Shown piece by piece: positions 11,928-29,183 of a stretch of 64,000 nucleotides of DNA. Position 1 is the stretch's first letter. The number at the start of each line of letters is the position of its first letter. A program made the position numbers and the translations under genes. This DNA is from Rhodospirillaceae bacterium (lineage in GTDB: Bacteria; Pseudomonadota; Alphaproteobacteria; UBA8366; Aestuariispiraceae): contig PAQY01000022.1 in NCBI GenBank assembly GCA_002709955.1, positions 124,001 to 188,000 of the forward strand, read 5' to 3'. The notes beneath the pieces were generated by a model that did no database searches, was not told where the DNA came from, and saw nothing but the letters and a program-made list of their open reading frames with translations.

Positions 11928-12638
11928 TTATTGAAGGCTGCAGACATTTCCATTCTGGCGATAGGGGCGATTACAGTCCCATCCGTTTCCAGAATAATCC
12001 AGATGGGCATTTTCCGGCAGGATAACGGGAACGCAATCGTCCCGGGTTGCCCTGAACCCGCGATTGCACAGCCATCCGGTACCATCGGACCGTTCCGCCA
12101 GATACCCATTCTTTGGCACGATGATCTCTACGCAAGTCTCACCGGATTCACGATACCCGTACTTGCATTCCCAGCCGCTGCCATAGGCTTTGTCGACCAG
12201 ATAACCATGTTCGGGGATTTTGATCTTCTCGCAGGTGTCGCGCGCCGTGCGATAGCCCCGTTCGCATTCCCAACGCTCTCCTGACGAGTCCAGAAAGCCA
12301 TTGGCGGGCACCCGGATTTTCGCACATTGACCTTTGCTTTCGCGATACCCGTAATTGCATTCCCAGCCCGGCCCATAACTGGACTGAATGGCATAGGCAT
12401 GATCCGGTACCTGAATTTTCAGGCATGCCCCATTATCCAGGCGATACCCGTCATTGCATTCCCACCCGCCGCCATAGCTTTTCTCATGCGCATTCGCGGG
12501 CACGGGGCCAGTTTGGGCCAGCGACATGGACGACATACCACCAACGATTAGACCTGACATAAATATGGTCGTCATCAAAAAGGCAATGCTGCGCCTCAGC
12601 CCGCACAAAAGTGCAGACATCGCAAAAAGTGAAATCAT
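11928..12638 (-). CDS. Putative secreted/surface protein with six Cys/Trp tandem repeats
   Basis: N-terminal hydrophobic signal, then ~32-33 aa repeats of the form [IV]xVPxxxxxxxxSxGxGWECNxGYRxxxxxC; 711 nt ORF; antisense frames show no family. Confidence 0.7.
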   Translation of the reverse strand: MISLFAMSALLCGLRRSIAFLMTTIFMSGLIVGGMSSMSLAQTGPVPANAHEKSYGGGWECNDGYRLDNGACLKIQVPDHAYAIQSSYGPGWECNYGYRESKGQCAKIRVPANGFLDSSGERWECERGYRTARDTCEKIKIPEHGYLVDKAYGSGWECKYGYRESGETCVEIIVPKNGYLAERSDGTGWLCNRGFRATRDDCVPVILPENAHLDYSGNGWDCNRPYRQNGNVCSLQ

Positions 12639-12686
12639 TAAATACCGCCTAAATTTTTGAAAACCCGGTTATCCCGGTAAATCCCA

Positions 12687-12812
12687 TTAGGATTTTGCAG
12701 GAGCAGCCGGCGCTTTTGGCGCTGTCGCCTTGGGGTCTGCGGCAGCCGGTTTTGCGGCATCAGCAGATTTCTTGTTTTCGGATGTCTGTGTAGAAAAGCT
12801 TTTAAAAGACAT
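12687..12812 (-). CDS. Small Ala/Lys/Pro-rich protein (41 aa)
   Basis: Reverse strand gives MSFKSFSTQTSENKKSADAAKPAAADPKATAPKAPAAPAKS*; AAAGGAAAC ribosome-binding-like sequence just upstream of ATG; below the ORF-track size cutoff. Confidence 0.55.
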   Translation of the reverse strand: MSFKSFSTQTSENKKSADAAKPAAADPKATAPKAPAAPAKS

Positions 12813-12829
12813 AATTGTTTCCTTTAAAT

Positions 12830-12851
12830 ATGCGATAATTATTTATCGCAT
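12830..12851. promoter_or_regulatory. Inverted repeat in the leader of the 41-aa ORF
   Basis: atgcgataa-ttat-ttatcgcat, perfect 9 bp arms, ~18 bp upstream of the start codon at 12812. Confidence 0.45.
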
Positions 12852-12954
12852 CGCTAATAAATGGGTGTTTTTTATTTTTTTACAACACAGAATAATTTTA
12901 TAATATAACCTCAATATTGTTTTTATATTTTGATTTTTATTTAAAAAACAGCAT

Positions 12955-13662
12955 CTAACGCATCGCCAAAGAAGCCCCGCTGATTTCCCGGATCAGCTTT
13001 CGTTTCATGGCCTGGGCATAATCCTGATATCCATTGGCCACCTCGACAAAGGAACCGGGTCCCTTGGCAACTTGGGTGCGATAGAATTCTTCCGGGTCCG
13101 GGTCAGAGCCCTTGATGACCAATCCGTTGACTGTGATATCGGTAAAATCAAAGGCGCGATAGGCGGATTCCGGCGGGAAACCCTCATTATTGACGCCGTC
13201 GCCAGCAACATCCACAACCTGCCTGGCACAGCGTTCGGGAACTTTCCGCAGATGAACCGCCGCAAAGCCCAACGCATATCCCAGTGATGTTGGATAGTCG
13301 GCATGCCCGCGCGGCGCAGCAGCGATGGTTTTCGCCACCCGTCCTATCGCGGCCAGACTGTCCAAATAGGTCCAGTCGACATGCACGATCTGGTTGGTGC
13401 GACCGCTCCATTCAAAGGCGGAGATCCACATACCGCCGCCCGACAGGATTGCGGCGACAACGTCTGGATCTGTCAAGGCAGAGGCCAAGCCGCGCGATTG
13501 AAAATCATGTTCCCCCGCATCGACGCTGGAAGAAACATCCTGCGCCAGCACCAACGCCAGGCTGCAGGCTTGGACGGGCAAACCAACAAAAAGCCAGCCG
13601 ATCAGGCCCACGGTCCCGGCAAAAATGCGTCTTTGGAAAACGGTTTTTGTCATCCATTGCAT
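12955..13662 (-). CDS. DUF1194 domain protein (VWA-like, secreted)
   Basis: Signal peptide then CSLALVLAQDVSSSVDAGEHDFQSRGLASALTDPDVVAAIL...RQVVDVAGDGVNNEG. Confidence 0.85.
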   Translation of the reverse strand: MQWMTKTVFQRRIFAGTVGLIGWLFVGLPVQACSLALVLAQDVSSSVDAGEHDFQSRGLASALTDPDVVAAILSGGGMWISAFEWSGRTNQIVHVDWTYLDSLAAIGRVAKTIAAAPRGHADYPTSLGYALGFAAVHLRKVPERCARQVVDVAGDGVNNEGFPPESAYRAFDFTDITVNGLVIKGSDPDPEEFYRTQVAKGPGSFVEVANGYQDYAQAMKRKLIREISGASLAMR

Positions 13663-20466: not shown

Positions 20467-20509
20467 GGGTTGCATGGCACTGGAATACTCAACCGCACGA
20501 GAAAGTGAG

Positions 20510-20581
20510 TTGGTTGCTCAGGTCGTTAGGACTGAGCATCATAATCTATTTGTCCTGAGTACAAACCCCTGATCTGCCGCA
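20510..20581 (+). pseudogene. Decayed tRNA-Met(CAT) copy
   Basis: gctcaggtcgttaggactgagcatcataatctatttgtcctgagtacaaacccctgatctgccgcaa aligns with the intact tRNA at 17885; from atcataatc onward 41/54 positions match, including 3' flank (hand alignment). Confidence 0.65.
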
Positions 20582-20696
20582 ACTTTCCTCCTAACATAGA
20601 CTCAATTTTCTTAATCCTTAGTTTTGTTGGTTTTACACCAATTTAAAACCATCCTCATAAAAAGTATCAATCGAGAACCCGAAACACTGTTCGGTT

Positions 20697-22898
20697 TTAG
20701 ATTTTCGGCTCTTCTACGTATACATCTCGATCTTCTTTACTATCATTATTTTCATCTTTTTCGCTATCGGACAATGGCATTGAGAGCGCCAAGCTAGCAT
20801 CAAGCTTTTTTTGATCGAAATCTCGGCGAAGTATAATTGGCCTTTCAGCTTTGATTGCCTTTCCGTATGCGAGAAACTCGAACCGGCCAAGATTTGGAAT
20901 CAAACGCGTGTGTTGCGCGCTGTAAACGCTCTCAAGGAAAGTTAAGCTGGTCTGATCAATTAGGCTATGGGTCAAGAATGTATTGCATTGTGACAGTATT
21001 GTTTTGCTTACAAGAGCGGTGCGCTGACTTATTACCATTAAACCCACCCCATATTTTCGACCCTGTAGGGCAATCTGCCCAATTCTACTGACAACATACT
21101 GCGTATCCGCATCAAATCCTGACCCAAATACTTCCGGTATAATTGTATGGGCCTCTTCCAGAACTATCAATACTTTTCGAGCTCTCCTGTTTGCGCGTGC
21201 CCATTCCATTATGCTTGAGAGGTATAATTCCGTAAGTCGAAGAGACGCCTTCGTGTTTGTAATGTCAGGTAGTTCAAATATTGCTAAGAATTCTGATTTA
21301 CTTTTTAAGAAGGTGTTTATTTGTTCTCTCGTTGATTCACGCAGAATATCGAGTCCCTCCTTAAGAATTTTCTTCTCCTCTGGGGCACCGTATTTACCTG
21401 TTTCGACATCAAACAATTTTGCTTCTAGTGTTGTGGCTTCTTCTTTGGTTGGGGCGGGATAGCATGGATTCAACTCGTTAAGTCGATGCTTGTAGTCACC
21501 AGTGAAATCTACACAAAATACTTTCACTCCATTCTTTACAGCTTCCCGAACAATATCGAGCGCTAATTCGGTCTTTCCTGTTCCCGTTACTCCAAGAACA
21601 GCGGAGTGGTATTCCACTAACTCATCGATGTTTGCTATGGCTTCGATATTTGTCGAAGGCACTTTCCCTATCGCGAACTCTCTGGCAGTTTGGTGCGGCT
21701 TTTGAAATGTACGACTCTCTGCAGAGAAAATTGGAATGTTCATACTTGGCAACCAAGCGTACTTCGTAAAGCCATCTTTAGCAGAATAAACACCAAGCTG
21801 AGATGCCCGCACCACATGCGTTCCGCGCGGATTTTGATCGAAACTTTCTTCGAATGTTTCTGCTCCAATAATTTGATAGAAAACATCTACGTTGGATAAT
21901 CTTACAAAGACAACATCTCCCTCTTTGATTTCCGCGTTAGCGGCAATTTCAAAGGCGATTACTCCAATGTTGGAATTTTCTACAACAAACCCCACTAAAC
22001 GAGAACTTACCGATCCACTTAGATTTGCCAAAAACTCGGCGGTTTTCTTATCATCGTGGCTACGGCACACAGAGCCAGCGGGCAATGAGATCATCTCTTG
22101 TGCTTCAGCAACGCAAAGCCCGGTACCAACAACTTCAATCCCTTGAATTTGTGAGAAGAGAGATACTGCATATCGCTGACTCCCGTCTGGCATGCTGGCG
22201 GTGAAGAGACAATTTGGTTTCCACGCATTAGCCGAGGAAAGTTTCACGCGAATAATATTTGGGTGGTCTACTCGGCTGATAACACCAACCGTTGGCATTT
22301 GTTTTTCACTCTTGCTACCGTCGTTTAACTGCCGAACTGCAGACACAATGCGCTCGATTGGCTTAGCGATCATTATGGTCAACCAGAAAAGGAGTAACCA
22401 TGCCATCGCTGCAAATGAGGCTTGGTATGCGACGATGATACTGATCACCGCAGGGAGAGAAAAAAGGATCTCACCGCAACCAAATGTGTTTGTTAGCTTG
22501 AAGGCAAACCGCCCTATTGATGACCTCTGGTCTTTGTCATGAAGAAACAAAGCCACAATGGCTAAAAATACTACTAAGACTGTGTATGCAGCTCCCCAGC
22601 CCTTGATTTGCTCCAGCTCCGCTGCAAACTGCGCCTGTGTTCCAATATCCATCGTAGTAAGGAGTAAGAGGGAAGTTATACCTGAGGCAACAACATCCCT
22701 TGGCGGTAAAAACCATGGAGCAGAAAACAAGCTTAGAAACCAATATGGTATAGCGCATAGTATCCAAACAGATTCCGCTGCACCCGTTGGCAACCAAACT
22801 CCTGTTACAGTCACGAAGAGCGCATATGCGACAGCCGAATTCACAAAAAGTGTTAGTGCTCGCTCACGTATTGAAGGGAAATTTTTCATGAATTCCAC
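20697..22898 (-). CDS. Membrane-anchored HerA/FtsK-superfamily ATPase (DUF87-like)
   Basis: 733 aa; N-terminal hydrophobic TM block; Walker A VLGVTGTGKTELALDIVREAV; FCVDFTGDYKHRL; Walker B VLIVLEEAHTIIPE; RIGQIALQGRKYGVGLMVISQRTALVSKTILSQCNTFLTHSLIDQTSL. Confidence 0.88.
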   Translation of the reverse strand: MEFMKNFPSIRERALTLFVNSAVAYALFVTVTGVWLPTGAAESVWILCAIPYWFLSLFSAPWFLPPRDVVASGITSLLLLTTMDIGTQAQFAAELEQIKGWGAAYTVLVVFLAIVALFLHDKDQRSSIGRFAFKLTNTFGCGEILFSLPAVISIIVAYQASFAAMAWLLLFWLTIMIAKPIERIVSAVRQLNDGSKSEKQMPTVGVISRVDHPNIIRVKLSSANAWKPNCLFTASMPDGSQRYAVSLFSQIQGIEVVGTGLCVAEAQEMISLPAGSVCRSHDDKKTAEFLANLSGSVSSRLVGFVVENSNIGVIAFEIAANAEIKEGDVVFVRLSNVDVFYQIIGAETFEESFDQNPRGTHVVRASQLGVYSAKDGFTKYAWLPSMNIPIFSAESRTFQKPHQTAREFAIGKVPSTNIEAIANIDELVEYHSAVLGVTGTGKTELALDIVREAVKNGVKVFCVDFTGDYKHRLNELNPCYPAPTKEEATTLEAKLFDVETGKYGAPEEKKILKEGLDILRESTREQINTFLKSKSEFLAIFELPDITNTKASLRLTELYLSSIMEWARANRRARKVLIVLEEAHTIIPEVFGSGFDADTQYVVSRIGQIALQGRKYGVGLMVISQRTALVSKTILSQCNTFLTHSLIDQTSLTFLESVYSAQHTRLIPNLGRFEFLAYGKAIKAERPIILRRDFDQKKLDASLALSMPLSDSEKDENNDSKEDRDVYVEEPKI

Positions 22899-23166
22899 CT
22901 CACTCCTAATTAACAGTTTATTCTAATAATATTCCAAGACTGCACGACTTATTACGCTTTGAAAACTGGCTGTTTGGGCCTCAGGCAAAAATGTGAGAAA
23001 TAATTTGGACAGAAACTTGAATGACTTTCGCATATTCATTGCCAACTTCTAATAAATCCATTGTCGTTCAAAAATTTATTTGACGATGGCCAACTCTTTC
23101 CTTGACCCAATGCACCATACTCTGCCCCTTAATCCTCCCTTGACCACCACATCACATTCCATTATT

Positions 23167-23186
23167 GAATTCTGAATTCAGAATTC
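23167..23186. promoter_or_regulatory. Perfect 20 bp palindrome upstream of GntR gene (putative operator)
   Basis: gaattctgaattcagaattc equals its reverse complement; ends ~15 bp before Met at 23201. Confidence 0.5.
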
Positions 23187-23200
23187 TAAATGTGGACAAG

Positions 23201-23923
23201 ATGAAACCATTGACGCAGACAGTTGGGCTTACGGAACGGGTGTATTCCGCGATTCTGGATGAGATTCTGGACGGGCGGTTGCCGACTGGGGCGCATTTGA
23301 TTCAGGAGCAATTGGCCGCTGATTTGGGCGTGTCGCGCCAGCCGGTGCAGCAGGCCATGGCGCTGTTGAAGGCCGACGGGTTGGTGGAGGAGATCGGGAC
23401 GCGCGGGCTGAAGGTGGCGGCGCTGGATCTGGGGCGCATGAACAACCATTATGACATCCGCGCCGTGCTGGATGCCTATGCCGCGCGATCATCGGCGCAA
23501 CGGGTGCGGGATCACCAGACCAGCCGGCACGTGGTCCAGGACAAGCTGAACCGCATTCTGACAGCGGGACGCGATGCGGTGCGTGCGGCATCGTTCAGTG
23601 ACCAGATCCGACAGGATGAGGCCTTTCATACCTGCCTGTATGCCTTTTCAGGCAATGCCGTTCTGGCAGAGTCTGCCGAGCCGCATTGGCGGTTTTTGCG
23701 CCGTGTCATGGCCGATGTTTTGCGCCATGCCGAACCACCGCCCGAAATCTGGGACCAGCATACACAAATTGCAGAGGCCGTCATCGCGGGTGACCCGGAC
23801 CGGGCCCATTCCCTGGCACAGTCCCATATCGATACGGCCGCGCGTAAGCTGTCCCGGGCGGCGGCGGAACATGCCGAACACACCAACGCCGAACACACCA
23901 ATGCTGTAGGGGTGCAATCATGA
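23201..23923 (+). CDS. GntR family transcriptional regulator (FCD type)
   Basis: TERVYSAILDEILDGRLPTGAHLIQEQLAADLGVSRQPVQQAMALLKADGLVEE wHTH; FCD-like DEAFHTCLYAFSGN; ORF track opens at TTG 23165. Confidence 0.9.
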   Translation: MKPLTQTVGLTERVYSAILDEILDGRLPTGAHLIQEQLAADLGVSRQPVQQAMALLKADGLVEEIGTRGLKVAALDLGRMNNHYDIRAVLDAYAARSSAQRVRDHQTSRHVVQDKLNRILTAGRDAVRAASFSDQIRQDEAFHTCLYAFSGNAVLAESAEPHWRFLRRVMADVLRHAEPPPEIWDQHTQIAEAVIAGDPDRAHSLAQSHIDTAARKLSRAAAEHAEHTNAEHTNAVGVQS

Positions 23924-25470
23924 CACCAATCCTGTTGACCACGGGTCAGATATTGAGCGCCCATGCCAGACTGCGCCCCACCGAGATCGGCGCACGGGAC
24001 ATGGAACGGTCGTTGAGTTATCAGGAATGGAATGCGCGGGCCTGCCGTTTGGCAAATGCCCTGATCGGCCTGGGCCTAGCAAAAGGTGACCGGGTCGCCG
24101 TGCTGGCCTATAACCGTCTGGAATGGGCGGAAATCTATACCGCGACGGCCAAGGCTGGATTGATCCCCGTGCCGATTAACTTCCGACTGACCGGGACAGA
24201 GGCCGCCTTTATCATCAATGACAGTGGCGCTGCAGCTGTCATCGTCGAAGACGCATTACTGCCAACACTGGACGCGGCACGGGCGGATATCCACATCCCG
24301 GAGGATCGGTTCATCCTGATTGGCGGGACCCCGCGCGCTGGGTATCGCGGCTATGAAGATCTGTTATCTGCGGCCAGCGACACGGAACCAAAGGCGATGG
24401 TGCTGCCCGATGACCCCTGGTGCCTGATGTACACATCGGGCACGACGGGCAATCCGAAAGGGGCGATCCGCAGCCATCGGGGCATGGCGATGTTGGCCCT
24501 GATGACCGATATTGAATTCCATCTGCACCGCCAGGATGATGCCCTGTTGGTCATGCCGATGTGCCATGCGAATTCTCTGAACTTTTTTACCGCATTCCTG
24601 TATTGCGGTGGGAGGATTACGATATTCTCCCGCCCCAGCTTTGATCCTGAACTGTGCCTGAAGGCGCTGGGCCAGGCGACATTCTCCTCTCTGGTGCCAA
24701 CGCATTATGCAATGATGCTGGATATCCCGTCTGGGAAGCGTGGCAACACCACAAATGTCGAAAAATTGCTGATTTCCTCTGCGCCGTCTTTCGCGGAGAC
24801 GAAAAGACGGATCATGGAGATGTTTCCCAATTCCGGCCTTTTTGAGTTATACGGATCAACGGAATCCGGATGGGTCACCATGCTGCACCCCCATGAGCAA
24901 TTTGATCATCTGGGAACGGTCGGGCGGGAAGTTGTCGGGTCTGCGCCGATCCGGCTGTTGGATGATAACGGCCAGGACGTCCCGGATGGCGAAGCCGGGG
25001 AGCTTTTTAGCTGTAACCCCTATCAGTTCGATGGCTACTGGAATCTACCAGAGAAAACCGCAGAGGCTATGCGCGGCCCCTATCTGAGCGTTGGTGATGT
25101 CGCCATGCGCGATGAACAGGGTTTCATCCGCTTGCTGGATCGCAAGAAGAACATGATCATCTCCGGGGGTGAAAATGTTTATCCCTCAGAGGTTGAGCAG
25201 GCCCTGATCAAGCACCCTGATGTGCGTGATGTTGCGGTGTTTGGCATAGAGGACCCCAAATGGGGCGAACGTGTCGTCGCCGCCGTGGTTCTGGACAATG
25301 GCGCGACCCACACGGCAGAGACATTGATCGATTGGTCGCGGGGACATCTGGCCGGATTCAAACGACCGCGTGAGATCATCTTTTTGGCACCGGACCAAAT
25401 GCCCCGCAATGCGACGGGAAAAATCCTGCACCGCACCCTGCGCGAAATATTCAATAAAGGCCGCAGTTAA
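23920..25470 (+). CDS. AMP-dependent acyl-CoA synthetase/ligase
   Basis: [84 protein letters not shown]. Confidence 0.95.
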
Positions 25471-25489
25471 CGCGGTGGGAGGAACTATC

Positions 25490-27238
25490 ATGAAAAACCC
25501 TGATCCAAAAATACAGGAAGACCTGAATACCGACCGACACAGTGTCGCCGCCTGGATCGCAAAATCGCTGGTGCGCCGGGGTGTGACCCGTGTGTTTGGA
25601 TTGCAAGGCGGTCACATCCAGCCGATCTGGGATTTTTTGGCACAGGATGGCGTGCAGATCGTCGATGTCCGGGACGAAGGGGCTGCGGTTCACATGGCCC
25701 ATGCCCATGCTGAACTGACCGGCGAACTGGGTGTATGCCTTGCGACCGCAGGCCCGGGGGTCACAAACTGTGTTTCCGGCATAGCCAATGCCCATCTGGC
25801 GCGGGTCCCGGTGCTGCTGATCGGGGGCTGTCCACCCCGTCCACAAACCAATATGGGCCCGCTGCAGGATATCCCCCATGTCGATATCATGGCCCCGGTC
25901 GCGCGCTACTCCCGGACCGCGCGGGTGCCTGAACAGGCCTTGCGGGAATTGGATGAAGCCATCGCCCGCGCCATGGGTGATATGGGGGAGGCCGGGCCTG
26001 CCTATATTGAATTTCCAACGGATGTGCTGCGCGTGTCTGTCCCACCGGCTTTGGTGCTGGAGGATTGGCTGGCCCCCAAACCCCGCCGACGGATCGCCCC
26101 AGACCGGACCGCGATTGAAGACGCCGTTGCGGCCATTCGCGCCGCCCGTCGCCCGCTGGTTGTCAGTGGCCGGGGGGCCGTGGGGGCAAATGCCGCCCTG
26201 ATACATTTCCTGGATGCGTCCGGTGCGCTGTATCTGGACACCCAGGAAAGCCGTGGACTGGTGCCAACCGATCACCCTTCCGTCGTTGGGGCGGTCCGTG
26301 CCGCGGCGATGGGCCAGACGGATCTGGTGATCACCCTGGGCCGCAAGCTGGACTATCAGCTTGGCTTTGGGTCGCCAGCGGTTTTCCCGGACGCCCGATT
26401 CCTGCGCATTGCCGCCACACCAGGGGAATTGATCGATAATCGACGGGGTACGCCCGAAATCCTGGCATCTGTTGATCTGGCATTGCAGGCCATCACCGAT
26501 GCGCTGGGAAATGATCCAGGGGATAGAGACAATGTATGGCTGTCAGGTTTGCAGGCAAAACATCGCGAACGGATTTCCAAAGGGGCGGCCACACCAGCGC
26601 CTAAAACCGGATCTGATGGAAAGATCCACCCGATGGCAATTTTCGAAGCCATCCGGGAATGTGCCGATCCAAGCTACATTGCCGTCGCCGATGGCGGCGA
26701 TTTTCTGAGCTTCGCGCGTGTCGGTCTGGAGGCGAAGACATATCTGGATGCCGGTGTTTTTGGTTGCCTTGGCGTCGGTGCCCCTTTTGCCAATGCGGCG
26801 GCCCTGGCCTGTCCGGATCGTCAGGTGATTTGTGTCAGTGGCGACGGGGCCTTTGGCATCAATGCAATAGAAATCGATACCGCCGTCCGTCATAACTGCA
26901 AGGCCGTTTTTATTATCTCTAACAATGCTGCCTGGAACATTGAACGGTTTGATCAGGACAATAATTATGGGGGCCGCGTGGTCGGGACAACGCTGCGCCA
27001 TTCTGATTATGCTGGAATGGCCCGCGCGCTGGGTGCATATGGGGAGCGTGTTGAGCATGCGGATAATTTGAAAGGTGCGATCGAGCGCGCGCTGGCAAAT
27101 GCGCCTGCCGTTGTGGATGTCGTAACGTCCCAGGATGCGATTTCTTCCGATGCCACCAAAGGGCTTGGCTTTGTGCCAACCTATCAGGCACTGGCGGCAT
27201 GGGACGACGCAGAAAGAAAGCGTCGGGGCGAGTCATAA
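25490..27238 (+). CDS. Thiamine pyrophosphate-dependent enzyme (acetolactate synthase-like)
   Basis: [59 protein letters not shown]-terminal [35 protein letters not shown]. Confidence 0.92.
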
Positions 27239-27267
27239 AGTGTTGGTTTTGAGATAAAGGATATAGT

Positions 27268-28386
27268 GTGACATTTGCGGTCAGCATTGGATCGAACATT
27301 CGGAAATCCCCCTATTTTGACGCAACTGTCGCGGATGGGGTGCGCAGTTTTTCCGTCTATAATCATATGTATATCCCTGGCAATTTCGGGGACCCTGATG
27401 CCGAATATGACCGGCTGATCCATGGGGTCTGTATGTGGGATGTCGCCGCCCAGCGGCAGGTTGAAATACAGGGCCCCCAGGCCGGAGAATTGGCGCAGTA
27501 TCTGACCACCCGCGATCTTTCTAAAACCACGATTGGTCAGGGACGTTATGTCCCGGTCTGTGACCATGACGGTATTCTGATCAATGATCCGGTCTTGTTG
27601 AAACTGTCTGAAGATCGCTACTGGATGTCGATTGCCGATAGTGACATCCAGCTATGGGCCAAGGCAATCGCCCGGGAACGGGGACTGAATGCTGCGGTTT
27701 TTGAGCCGGATGTTTCCCCATTGGCCATTCAAGGCCCCAAGGCACTGAACGTCGTCCGCGATCTGTTTGGCGATTGGGTGGCAGACCTGCGCTATTTCAT
27801 GTTCCGGGAGACCCATCTGATGGGCATTCCTCTGGTCCTTGCCCGCTCCGGCTGGTCAAAACAGGGCGGGTTTGAGCTGTATCTGATGGATCAAACGCGC
27901 GGTGCGGATTTGTGGGCGATTGTTAAATCGGCCGGTCAGCCGCATGGTATTGGTCCCGGTGCCCCAAATGATGCTGAACGGATTGAAAGCGGGCAGTTGT
28001 CCTTTGGTGCGGATTGCCGATTTCAGACCTATCCCGCCAATCCATTCGAAGTGGGACTGGGGGCCCTTGTCAGCACTGACTCTGGGATTGATTTCGTCGG
28101 TCGCGATGCTTTGATAAAAATTCAGAAGGACGGCATCAAGCGTCACCGGGTGGGTATCATCATCGACGGCGACACCATCACCCAGAACCAGCACCCGATC
28201 ACACTGTTCCAAAACGAAACGCCCATTGGCTATGCCAGTGAGGTTATTTATTCTCCTCGTTTGCAAAAGAATATCGGGATCGCACTGGTCGATATCCGCA
28301 TCACACCAGAATCGAAGGACCTGTCGATCTCGATTGATGGGGATCATCGTAAATTAAGCACGACGCCCCTGCCCTTCATCTCATAA
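27268..28386 (+). CDS. GcvT-fold methyltransferase, DmdA-like (DMSP demethylase-related)
   Basis: IRKSPYFDATVADGVRSFSVYNHMYIPGNFGDPDAEYDRLIHGVCMWDVAAQRQVEIQGP...GQGRYVPVCDHDGILINDPVLLKLSEDRYWMSIADSDI resembles recalled DmdA sequences. Confidence 0.75.
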   Translation: MTFAVSIGSNIRKSPYFDATVADGVRSFSVYNHMYIPGNFGDPDAEYDRLIHGVCMWDVAAQRQVEIQGPQAGELAQYLTTRDLSKTTIGQGRYVPVCDHDGILINDPVLLKLSEDRYWMSIADSDIQLWAKAIARERGLNAAVFEPDVSPLAIQGPKALNVVRDLFGDWVADLRYFMFRETHLMGIPLVLARSGWSKQGGFELYLMDQTRGADLWAIVKSAGQPHGIGPGAPNDAERIESGQLSFGADCRFQTYPANPFEVGLGALVSTDSGIDFVGRDALIKIQKDGIKRHRVGIIIDGDTITQNQHPITLFQNETPIGYASEVIYSPRLQKNIGIALVDIRITPESKDLSISIDGDHRKLSTTPLPFIS

Positions 28387-28391
28387 AGGGA

Positions 28392-29183
28392 TTAAAAGCT
28401 GAACAATCTTGCCATCTTCCAGGATTTCTTTTCCCCTGAAAGTATCTCCGGCACGCCGATATAACTGCCGTCCAGGAATAGATTGAAATAGGCGGGGAAG
28501 ACGCCACTAGTTATTGTTGCCTTGATAGAAAGCGGGTTCAGATCGGTTTCGAAGTCTGACTTTTTTGCACGCAGGGCATCAATCAAAGACATTGGATCTG
28601 AACAGAAATCATAGAAATACGATATTTTGGTCGTGATGCTGAGATCGCCCTTCTCATAAAACAGCATCGGCAGGTCGACCGGCAGGGAATAGACCAGACC
28701 AGTATCAGCCTCAAATACCAGGCGAAATGAAAGGCCCTGTTGGATCGCCTTGCGCAACGCTTCAAGGTTATTGCGGTCGTCGGAATCCCAGACTTTTTGA
28801 AGCGGGTCCCTCACAACAAACTTGAATTCGCTATATTGACGTAAACTACATAGGGTCAGTTGCTGGGTCTGATCCCGCAAGGCAGTTTCGAAAAACTTAC
28901 GCGCGGCTGAAAAATAGAGCGGTGCGCTGTTCGTATAGCCAAAATGAAGCGGGTCAGAGATACCCTTTTGCGTTTGGTACAGAAGGTGTTCCCCATCGGT
29001 CAATCCCCAGAACTTGTCCCCCAATAAACATAACCGACTTAGACTATAGCATTCCTCATATCGGGGCAGAGGGTTTATGTAATGGGCGGCGAGAGAATCA
29101 TCAGGCACCATAACCGCAACAACCTGCCCGCCATCCAGAATTTTCTGTCGGGCATTGTCCAGACTGTAATCAAAAACCGACAT
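28392..29183 (-). CDS. Hypothetical protein (263 aa)
   Basis: ORF of 792 nt, no family recognised; convergent with the DmdA-like gene with a ~5 bp gap. Confidence 0.6.
   Translation of the reverse strand: MSVFDYSLDNARQKILDGGQVVAVMVPDDSLAAHYINPLPRYEECYSLSRLCLLGDKFWGLTDGEHLLYQTQKGISDPLHFGYTNSAPLYFSAARKFFETALRDQTQQLTLCSLRQYSEFKFVVRDPLQKVWDSDDRNNLEALRKAIQQGLSFRLVFEADTGLVYSLPVDLPMLFYEKGDLSITTKISYFYDFCSDPMSLIDALRAKKSDFETDLNPLSIKATITSGVFPAYFNLFLDGSYIGVPEILSGEKKSWKMARLFSF

Follow-up and report, generated by a model that had tools for sequence, protein, structure and literature searches.

The closest described relatives of the protein analyzed here are the HerA ATPases of SIR2-HerA (Nezha, Gao_19) and DUF4297-HerA, which were its best Foldseek and profile matches. 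Both systems are soluble and encoded by two genes, with the HerA subunit (a HAS barrel followed by the HerA ATPase, with a GRKYG finger) accompanied by a nuclease or NADase partner. In DUF4297-HerA, residues R455/K456 of the GRKYG element constitute a trans-acting finger, and one continuous channel runs through the HAS domains and nuclease layers (PMC11291478). In all of the HerA defense systems with solved structures met in this analysis, the ring is accompanied by a distinct enzyme.

A gene found in a 64,000-nucleotide window (the whole stretch of DNA analyzed, from an alphaproteobacterial genome) encodes a protein, designated TM-HerA, with the same succession of HAS barrel, HerA ATPase and GRKYG finger. 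Unlike the two systems above, it is a single gene, whose product has a transmembrane (TM) block joined to the N-terminal side of the HAS barrel, as well as an extra beta domain. HerA-based immunity is known, and the one-gene, TM-fused HerA is a new variant of it: PADLOC, NCBIfam and Pfam hold no specific model of the TM form, and a search of the open-access literature revealed no membrane HerA defense protein.

Gene and protein architecture of TM-HerA

The open reading frame at 20697–22898 reported in the initial annotation does exist; it lies on the minus strand, which had been left unstated, and its 733 aa correspond to an alternative GTG start at 22898. The ATG at 22889 is the more likely start, and residues are numbered from it throughout. 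With GC and GC3 values of 0.443 and 0.405, versus 0.566 across the remaining window, the gene exceeds every other 2.2-kb stretch of the window in AT content; the dip is well beyond local variation, as the lowest other non-overlapping 2.2-kb stretch has a GC content of 0.512. The AT-rich islet described earlier is real, and the hand counts given for it (21/60 and 37/60 GC) were exact.

Table 1. Features of the TM-HerA gene, its product and its locus (positions in the window; residues counted from the ATG).
Feature	Position	Strand	Residues	Basis or remark
TM-HerA CDS	20697..22889	-	730 aa	from the ATG at 22889, the presumed start
Ribosome-binding-like TAGGAGTGAGG	just upstream of the CDS	-		
Six-TM membrane block	22359..22859	-	11–177	hydropathy in family alignment, loop charges
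Extra beta domain	22023..22292	-	about 200–289	all-beta in AF2 model
HAS-barrel region	21690..22022	-	about 290–400	hhalign; PDB profile matches reaching in
HerA/FtsK-clade ATPase domain	20820..21677	-	405–690	profile matches, Foldseek
Walker A GVTGTGKT	21570..21593	-	433–440 (K439)	
Walker B VLIVLEEAH	21147..21173	-	573–581 (VLEEAH 576–581)	
QGRKYG	21048..21065	-	609–614	
Genus-variable segment holding TM-HerA	20474..28388			blastn and ORFs versus congener G385

The order TM block, beta domain, HAS barrel and ATPase is common to 13 relatives aligned end to end (from alpha- and gammaproteobacteria and Arcobacter). The membrane anchoring proposed in the initial annotation agrees with the six TM helices predicted by hydropathy in the family alignment and with their positive-inside loops; the loop charges favor an N-in/C-in topology, which would place the ATPase domain in the cytoplasm. 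Within the membrane block, which has no recognizable effector fold, P58 and P177 are invariant and P63 and W169 nearly invariant among the 13 relatives.

The "middle domain" noted earlier comprises two parts, the extra beta domain and the HerA HAS barrel (Table 1). The likeness between them is weak (hhalign E = 0.016, not significant), and for this reason a double HAS barrel, considered as a candidate, was dropped. The HAS barrel bears the family signature EESFDQNPRGTH ... WLPxMNxPxF, and from residue 317 onward the TM-HerA profile is collinear with that of DUF4297-type HerA (hhalign E = 8e-25), with the HAS segment by itself reaching a non-significant E = 0.014. The position of a HAS barrel N-terminal to the ATPase, a mark of the HerA branch, is thus seen in the collinear hhalign alignment and in Foldseek alignments spanning 450–590 columns.

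The earlier assignment of the protein to the HerA/FtsK-type ATPases was likewise confirmed: Walker A, Walker B, QGRKYG and SQRTALVSKTILSQCNT (residues 621–637) are all present, and the protein matches Pfam DUF87/HerA (E = 4e-14) and PADLOC HerA (E = 4.5e-30). Residues R611/K612 align with the GRKYG element of DUF4297-HerA. Further marks of the HerA branch were found, i.e., a DUF87 domain with Walker A/B motifs, an arginine finger near GRKYG, and a Q ending core strand 4 (SQR). A PDB profile search matched SIR2-HerA, DUF4297-HerA and Sulfolobus HerA. An AF2 model of residues 190–730 had a mean pLDDT of 62 (mostly 65–90 in the ATPase core), and its top 50 Foldseek matches in the PDB were all HerA chains, a result that is not fully independent, since the AF2 input alignment included three HerA rows. 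The full-length AF2 model, built from two sequences, was poor (pLDDT 42). By homology, TM-HerA may be expected to form a hexameric ring and to translocate DNA. SIR2/DUF4297-type HerA proteins have a long helical insert following the Walker A segment, as well as a C-terminal tail; TM-HerA has no counterpart of either.

Membership of the specific NCBIfam families was not indicated for (i) the anti-phage HerA models NF042943 and NF042944 (73.5 and 67.3 bits versus a cut-off of 800–850), (ii) the equivalog for the repair HerA of NurA-HerA (61.9 versus 970 bits), and (iii) the DNA-import equivalogs CedD (59.3 versus 600 bits) and CedB (27.2 versus 700 bits). In a tree of the ATPase domain, the TM-HerA proteins group together and are separated from SIR2/DUF4297-type HerA (support 1.0). 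The relatives sharing the TM-HAS-HerA architecture fall into two clades, A (including the window copy) and B.

Distribution and genomic neighborhoods

TM-HerA is present in a single copy in its own genome and absent from five other members of the genus, 13 other members of the family and 43 other genomes of the order. In the class, it was found in 6 of 385 genomes (about 1%, own genome included), belonging to scattered families, and in the Gammaproteobacteria in 4 of 369. The gene lies between a molybdopterin oxidoreductase gene and a GntR/AMP-ligase/TPP-enzyme/GcvT cluster; given these metabolic neighbors, the window copy has no partner gene and its description as an orphan holds. The locus is variable, as congener G385 matches the oxidoreductase side at 91% identity as far as 20473 and then has other genes until window position 28389. 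Neither a recombinase nor flanking repeats were found around the window copy, and no convincing mobility genes, terminal repeats or target duplications were detected there.

The variable segment, which adjoins the conserved molybdopterin oxidoreductase gene and a tRNA-Met gene, holds TM-HerA, GntR, AMP-ligase, TPP-enzyme and GcvT-like genes, replaced in G385 by genes of a Rieske-type oxygenase and a LysR protein. At its far edge, positions 28392–29183 (minus strand) encode a 263-aa protein with no Pfam match, whose G385 counterpart shows approximately 74% DNA identity. Elsewhere in the window, a region of low GC content for the window (11928–12638, minus strand) encodes a predicted secreted protein of 236 aa with tandem repeats of the GWxCNxGYR...C..I.VP.N type and no confident Pfam match.

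The accessory status suggested in the initial annotation is borne out by the patchy distribution and by lone insertion at unrelated loci, and neither conserved core synteny nor a housekeeping role was found. A housekeeping or DNA-repair HerA of the NurA-HerA type, to which the resemblance to archaeal HerA in sequence and fold would point, is very improbable: no NurA-like gene was present among the scanned genes near the window copy, the locus is variable, the composition foreign and a TM block present, and the distribution, with absence from the 43 other genomes of the order, already contradicts such a role.

The proteins of clade A are 43–58% identical to the window protein. At four loci (L001, L017, L018 and L019) the gene stands alone amid core or metabolic genes, and these four copies, like that of the window, have a GC content 12–16 points below their flanks. 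At L017, TM-HerA is the only gene on an exchanged stretch of 2.26 kb, where a congener has 0.52 kb; the right junction of this stretch lies inside a neighboring gene resembling that of a transport substrate-binding protein, the 5' part of which has been lost. Copies on Bradyrhizobium plasmids (about 60% identity) are located close to Abi, Fic and restriction-type genes. All three examined (L008, L009 and L010) carry frameshifts, which fall at two different sites, an indication that the gene decayed there repeatedly.

Another clade A copy was identified in a viral contig (L033) whose genes follow the P2 order: head-tail adaptor, terminase, capsid, scaffold and portal, then Dam and TM-HerA. Between gpA and gpQ, coliphage P2 has a verified hotspot of anti-phage genes (PMC9122126), and we interpret L033 as a P2-like prophage with TM-HerA on the portal side, matching this hotspot. 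No gpA homolog, which would mark the far border of the hotspot, was seen in the 15 kb of L033, where only a weak replication-initiation match at 12621–13349 was present. A tblastn search of phage GenBank records gave no TM-HerA match, and of four viral-contig scans two yielded nothing new and one an ordinary HerA only.

Clade B proteins share 22–26% identity with the window protein and have an unchanged architecture. The survey of homolog neighborhoods for defense genes proposed in the initial annotation revealed such genes as recurrent neighbors across the family, established ones being adjacent or nearly so in five of seven clade B loci (raw count). The neighborhoods are as follows: (i) L012, a type I restriction-modification (RM) operon containing TM-HerA together with an SMODS cyclase (PADLOC E = 1.5e-190) and SLATT_6; (ii) L028, TM-HerA between HsdS and PDC-S42 genes, with HsdM and type I R-like genes; (iii) L027, TM-HerA by HsdR/HsdM and PDC-S06, followed by Drt8 (1.4e-136) and AbiEii; (iv) L011, AbiE upstream and Drt8 downstream; (v) L034, IetA/IetS (5e-261) immediately before TM-HerA and a DNA methylase gene after it; (vi) L035, a transposase gene upstream and DUF4365 downstream; and (vii) L021, a serine recombinase gene upstream. 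The defense systems represented next to clade B copies are CBASS, IetAS, Drt8, AbiE and type I/III RM. The PDC-S42 candidate defense gene of L028 (7908–8810) lies directly downstream of TM-HerA in the type I RM locus. In L027 (8508–12361) and L011 (9401–13313), the Drt8 reverse transcriptase gene (E about 1e-136) comes next after TM-HerA in the same orientation, and the two may form a two-gene unit; no model of a Drt8-associated second gene was found in PADLOC.

The placement within RM operons (L012, L028) and directly before Drt8 (L027, L011) would suit a protein that serves restriction or Drt8-type systems as an accessory subunit, with the clade A proteins as solo offshoots using resident host nucleases. 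We regard this as quite unlikely: the partners vary from locus to locus and clade A moves as a single gene, which argues against an obligate partner, while the TM-HerA proteins of the two Drt8 cases share 85% identity and therefore represent one lineage. No adjacent SIR2 or DUF4297 effector gene was present among the neighboring ORFs of the window copy and its relatives.

Proposed function

The module put forward in the initial annotation, a single-gene accessory unit for defense or DNA translocation, is supported, as TM-HerA is lone, patchily distributed, membrane-anchored and, within its family, found in the company of defense genes. The choice between defense and DNA transfer was made on genomic context. 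Judged in this way, TM-HerA likely defends cells, and, somewhat less firmly, we consider it a gene that acts on its own against invaders (phages or plasmids) and encodes a membrane-tethered HerA ring. It moves alone, is patchy and occurs at defense hotspots, as expected of single-gene defense systems; a single-gene anti-phage system is the most likely form, because relatives recur among anti-virus genes and in a prophage defense hotspot. The counter-evidence is that clade A, to which the window copy belongs, is situated mostly amid metabolic or core genes and not in defense islands; the association with defense comes from clade B (22–26% identity), one prophage and the decayed Bradyrhizobium plasmid copies.

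The main rival is DNA export, i.e., a pump in which a membrane-anchored ring moves dsDNA across the envelope, as do FtsK/SpoIIIE and Thermus TdtA; Streptomyces TraB is a further example. HerA/FtsK motors do pump DNA, the TM-first-then-motor order fits the FtsK layout, CedD and CedB (NCBIfam) are among the weak matches, and the ring of the HerA-family protein TdtA is located partly at the membrane and needed for DNA donation (PMC5365140). However, no relaxase, mating-pair or import gene adjoins TM-HerA in the window or in its solo relatives, the recurrent neighbors of the family are defense genes, and no FtsK gamma-type DNA-reading domain was found in the protein, which ends in a short C-terminal tail. 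Such a pump is therefore unlikely.

For the defense reading, the following mechanism may be envisaged. A HerA-type ATPase ring, anchored by six TM helices per subunit to the inner membrane on its cytoplasmic side, would there encounter either DNA entering the cell or some component of a phage; the ring would then close and hydrolyze ATP, and the TM bundle would be driven to perturb the membrane or to trap DNA there. It is conjectured, tentatively, that the TM block itself acts as the effector in cis, in place of the usual partner enzyme. A membrane effector is favored because known effectors, SIR2 or DUF4297, dock on the HAS side, which the TM block occupies in cis; DNA capture or pumping at the membrane is a close alternative. 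TM-HerA may represent a class of HerA immunity not seen before: its ring, with as many as 36 membrane helices, would sense DNA and then either gate or breach the inner membrane or capture phage DNA on entry. If this is true, HerA rings would serve as a general scaffold for activation, with membrane events among their possible outputs, and TM-HerA would offer a minimal system for testing how such rings sense invaders. Current defense annotation misses TM-HerA or labels it as generic HerA, since PADLOC has no dedicated model for it.

Comparison with known systems

Interception of invader DNA by a HerA/FtsK motor, as envisaged for TM-HerA, has been proposed for DndFGH and other "HerA/FtsK capture" systems (PMC10853773) and for BREX-related capture (PMC12839542). 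Both are multi-gene systems with nuclease domains, and the parts of the two reports considered here describe no TM block (PMC10853773, PMC12839542). TdtA of Thermus resembles TM-HerA in being a HerA-family ring ATPase of a mobile island, found partly in the cell-envelope fraction, but it has a soluble-size length of 568 aa, adjoins NurA and restriction genes and acts in DNA donation; TM helices are not mentioned in the text of that report (PMC5365140).

FtsK and SpoIIIE share with TM-HerA an N-terminal TM block and a hexameric DNA motor. They belong to a different ATPase branch, possess a gamma domain and a long linker, and are essential or core proteins. TM-HerA, unlike them, has a HAS barrel and an accessory distribution. 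A single-gene defense candidate, tmn, encodes a TM-containing KAP NTPase, not a HerA, and like TM-HerA it is a one-gene membrane P-loop NTPase linked to defense.
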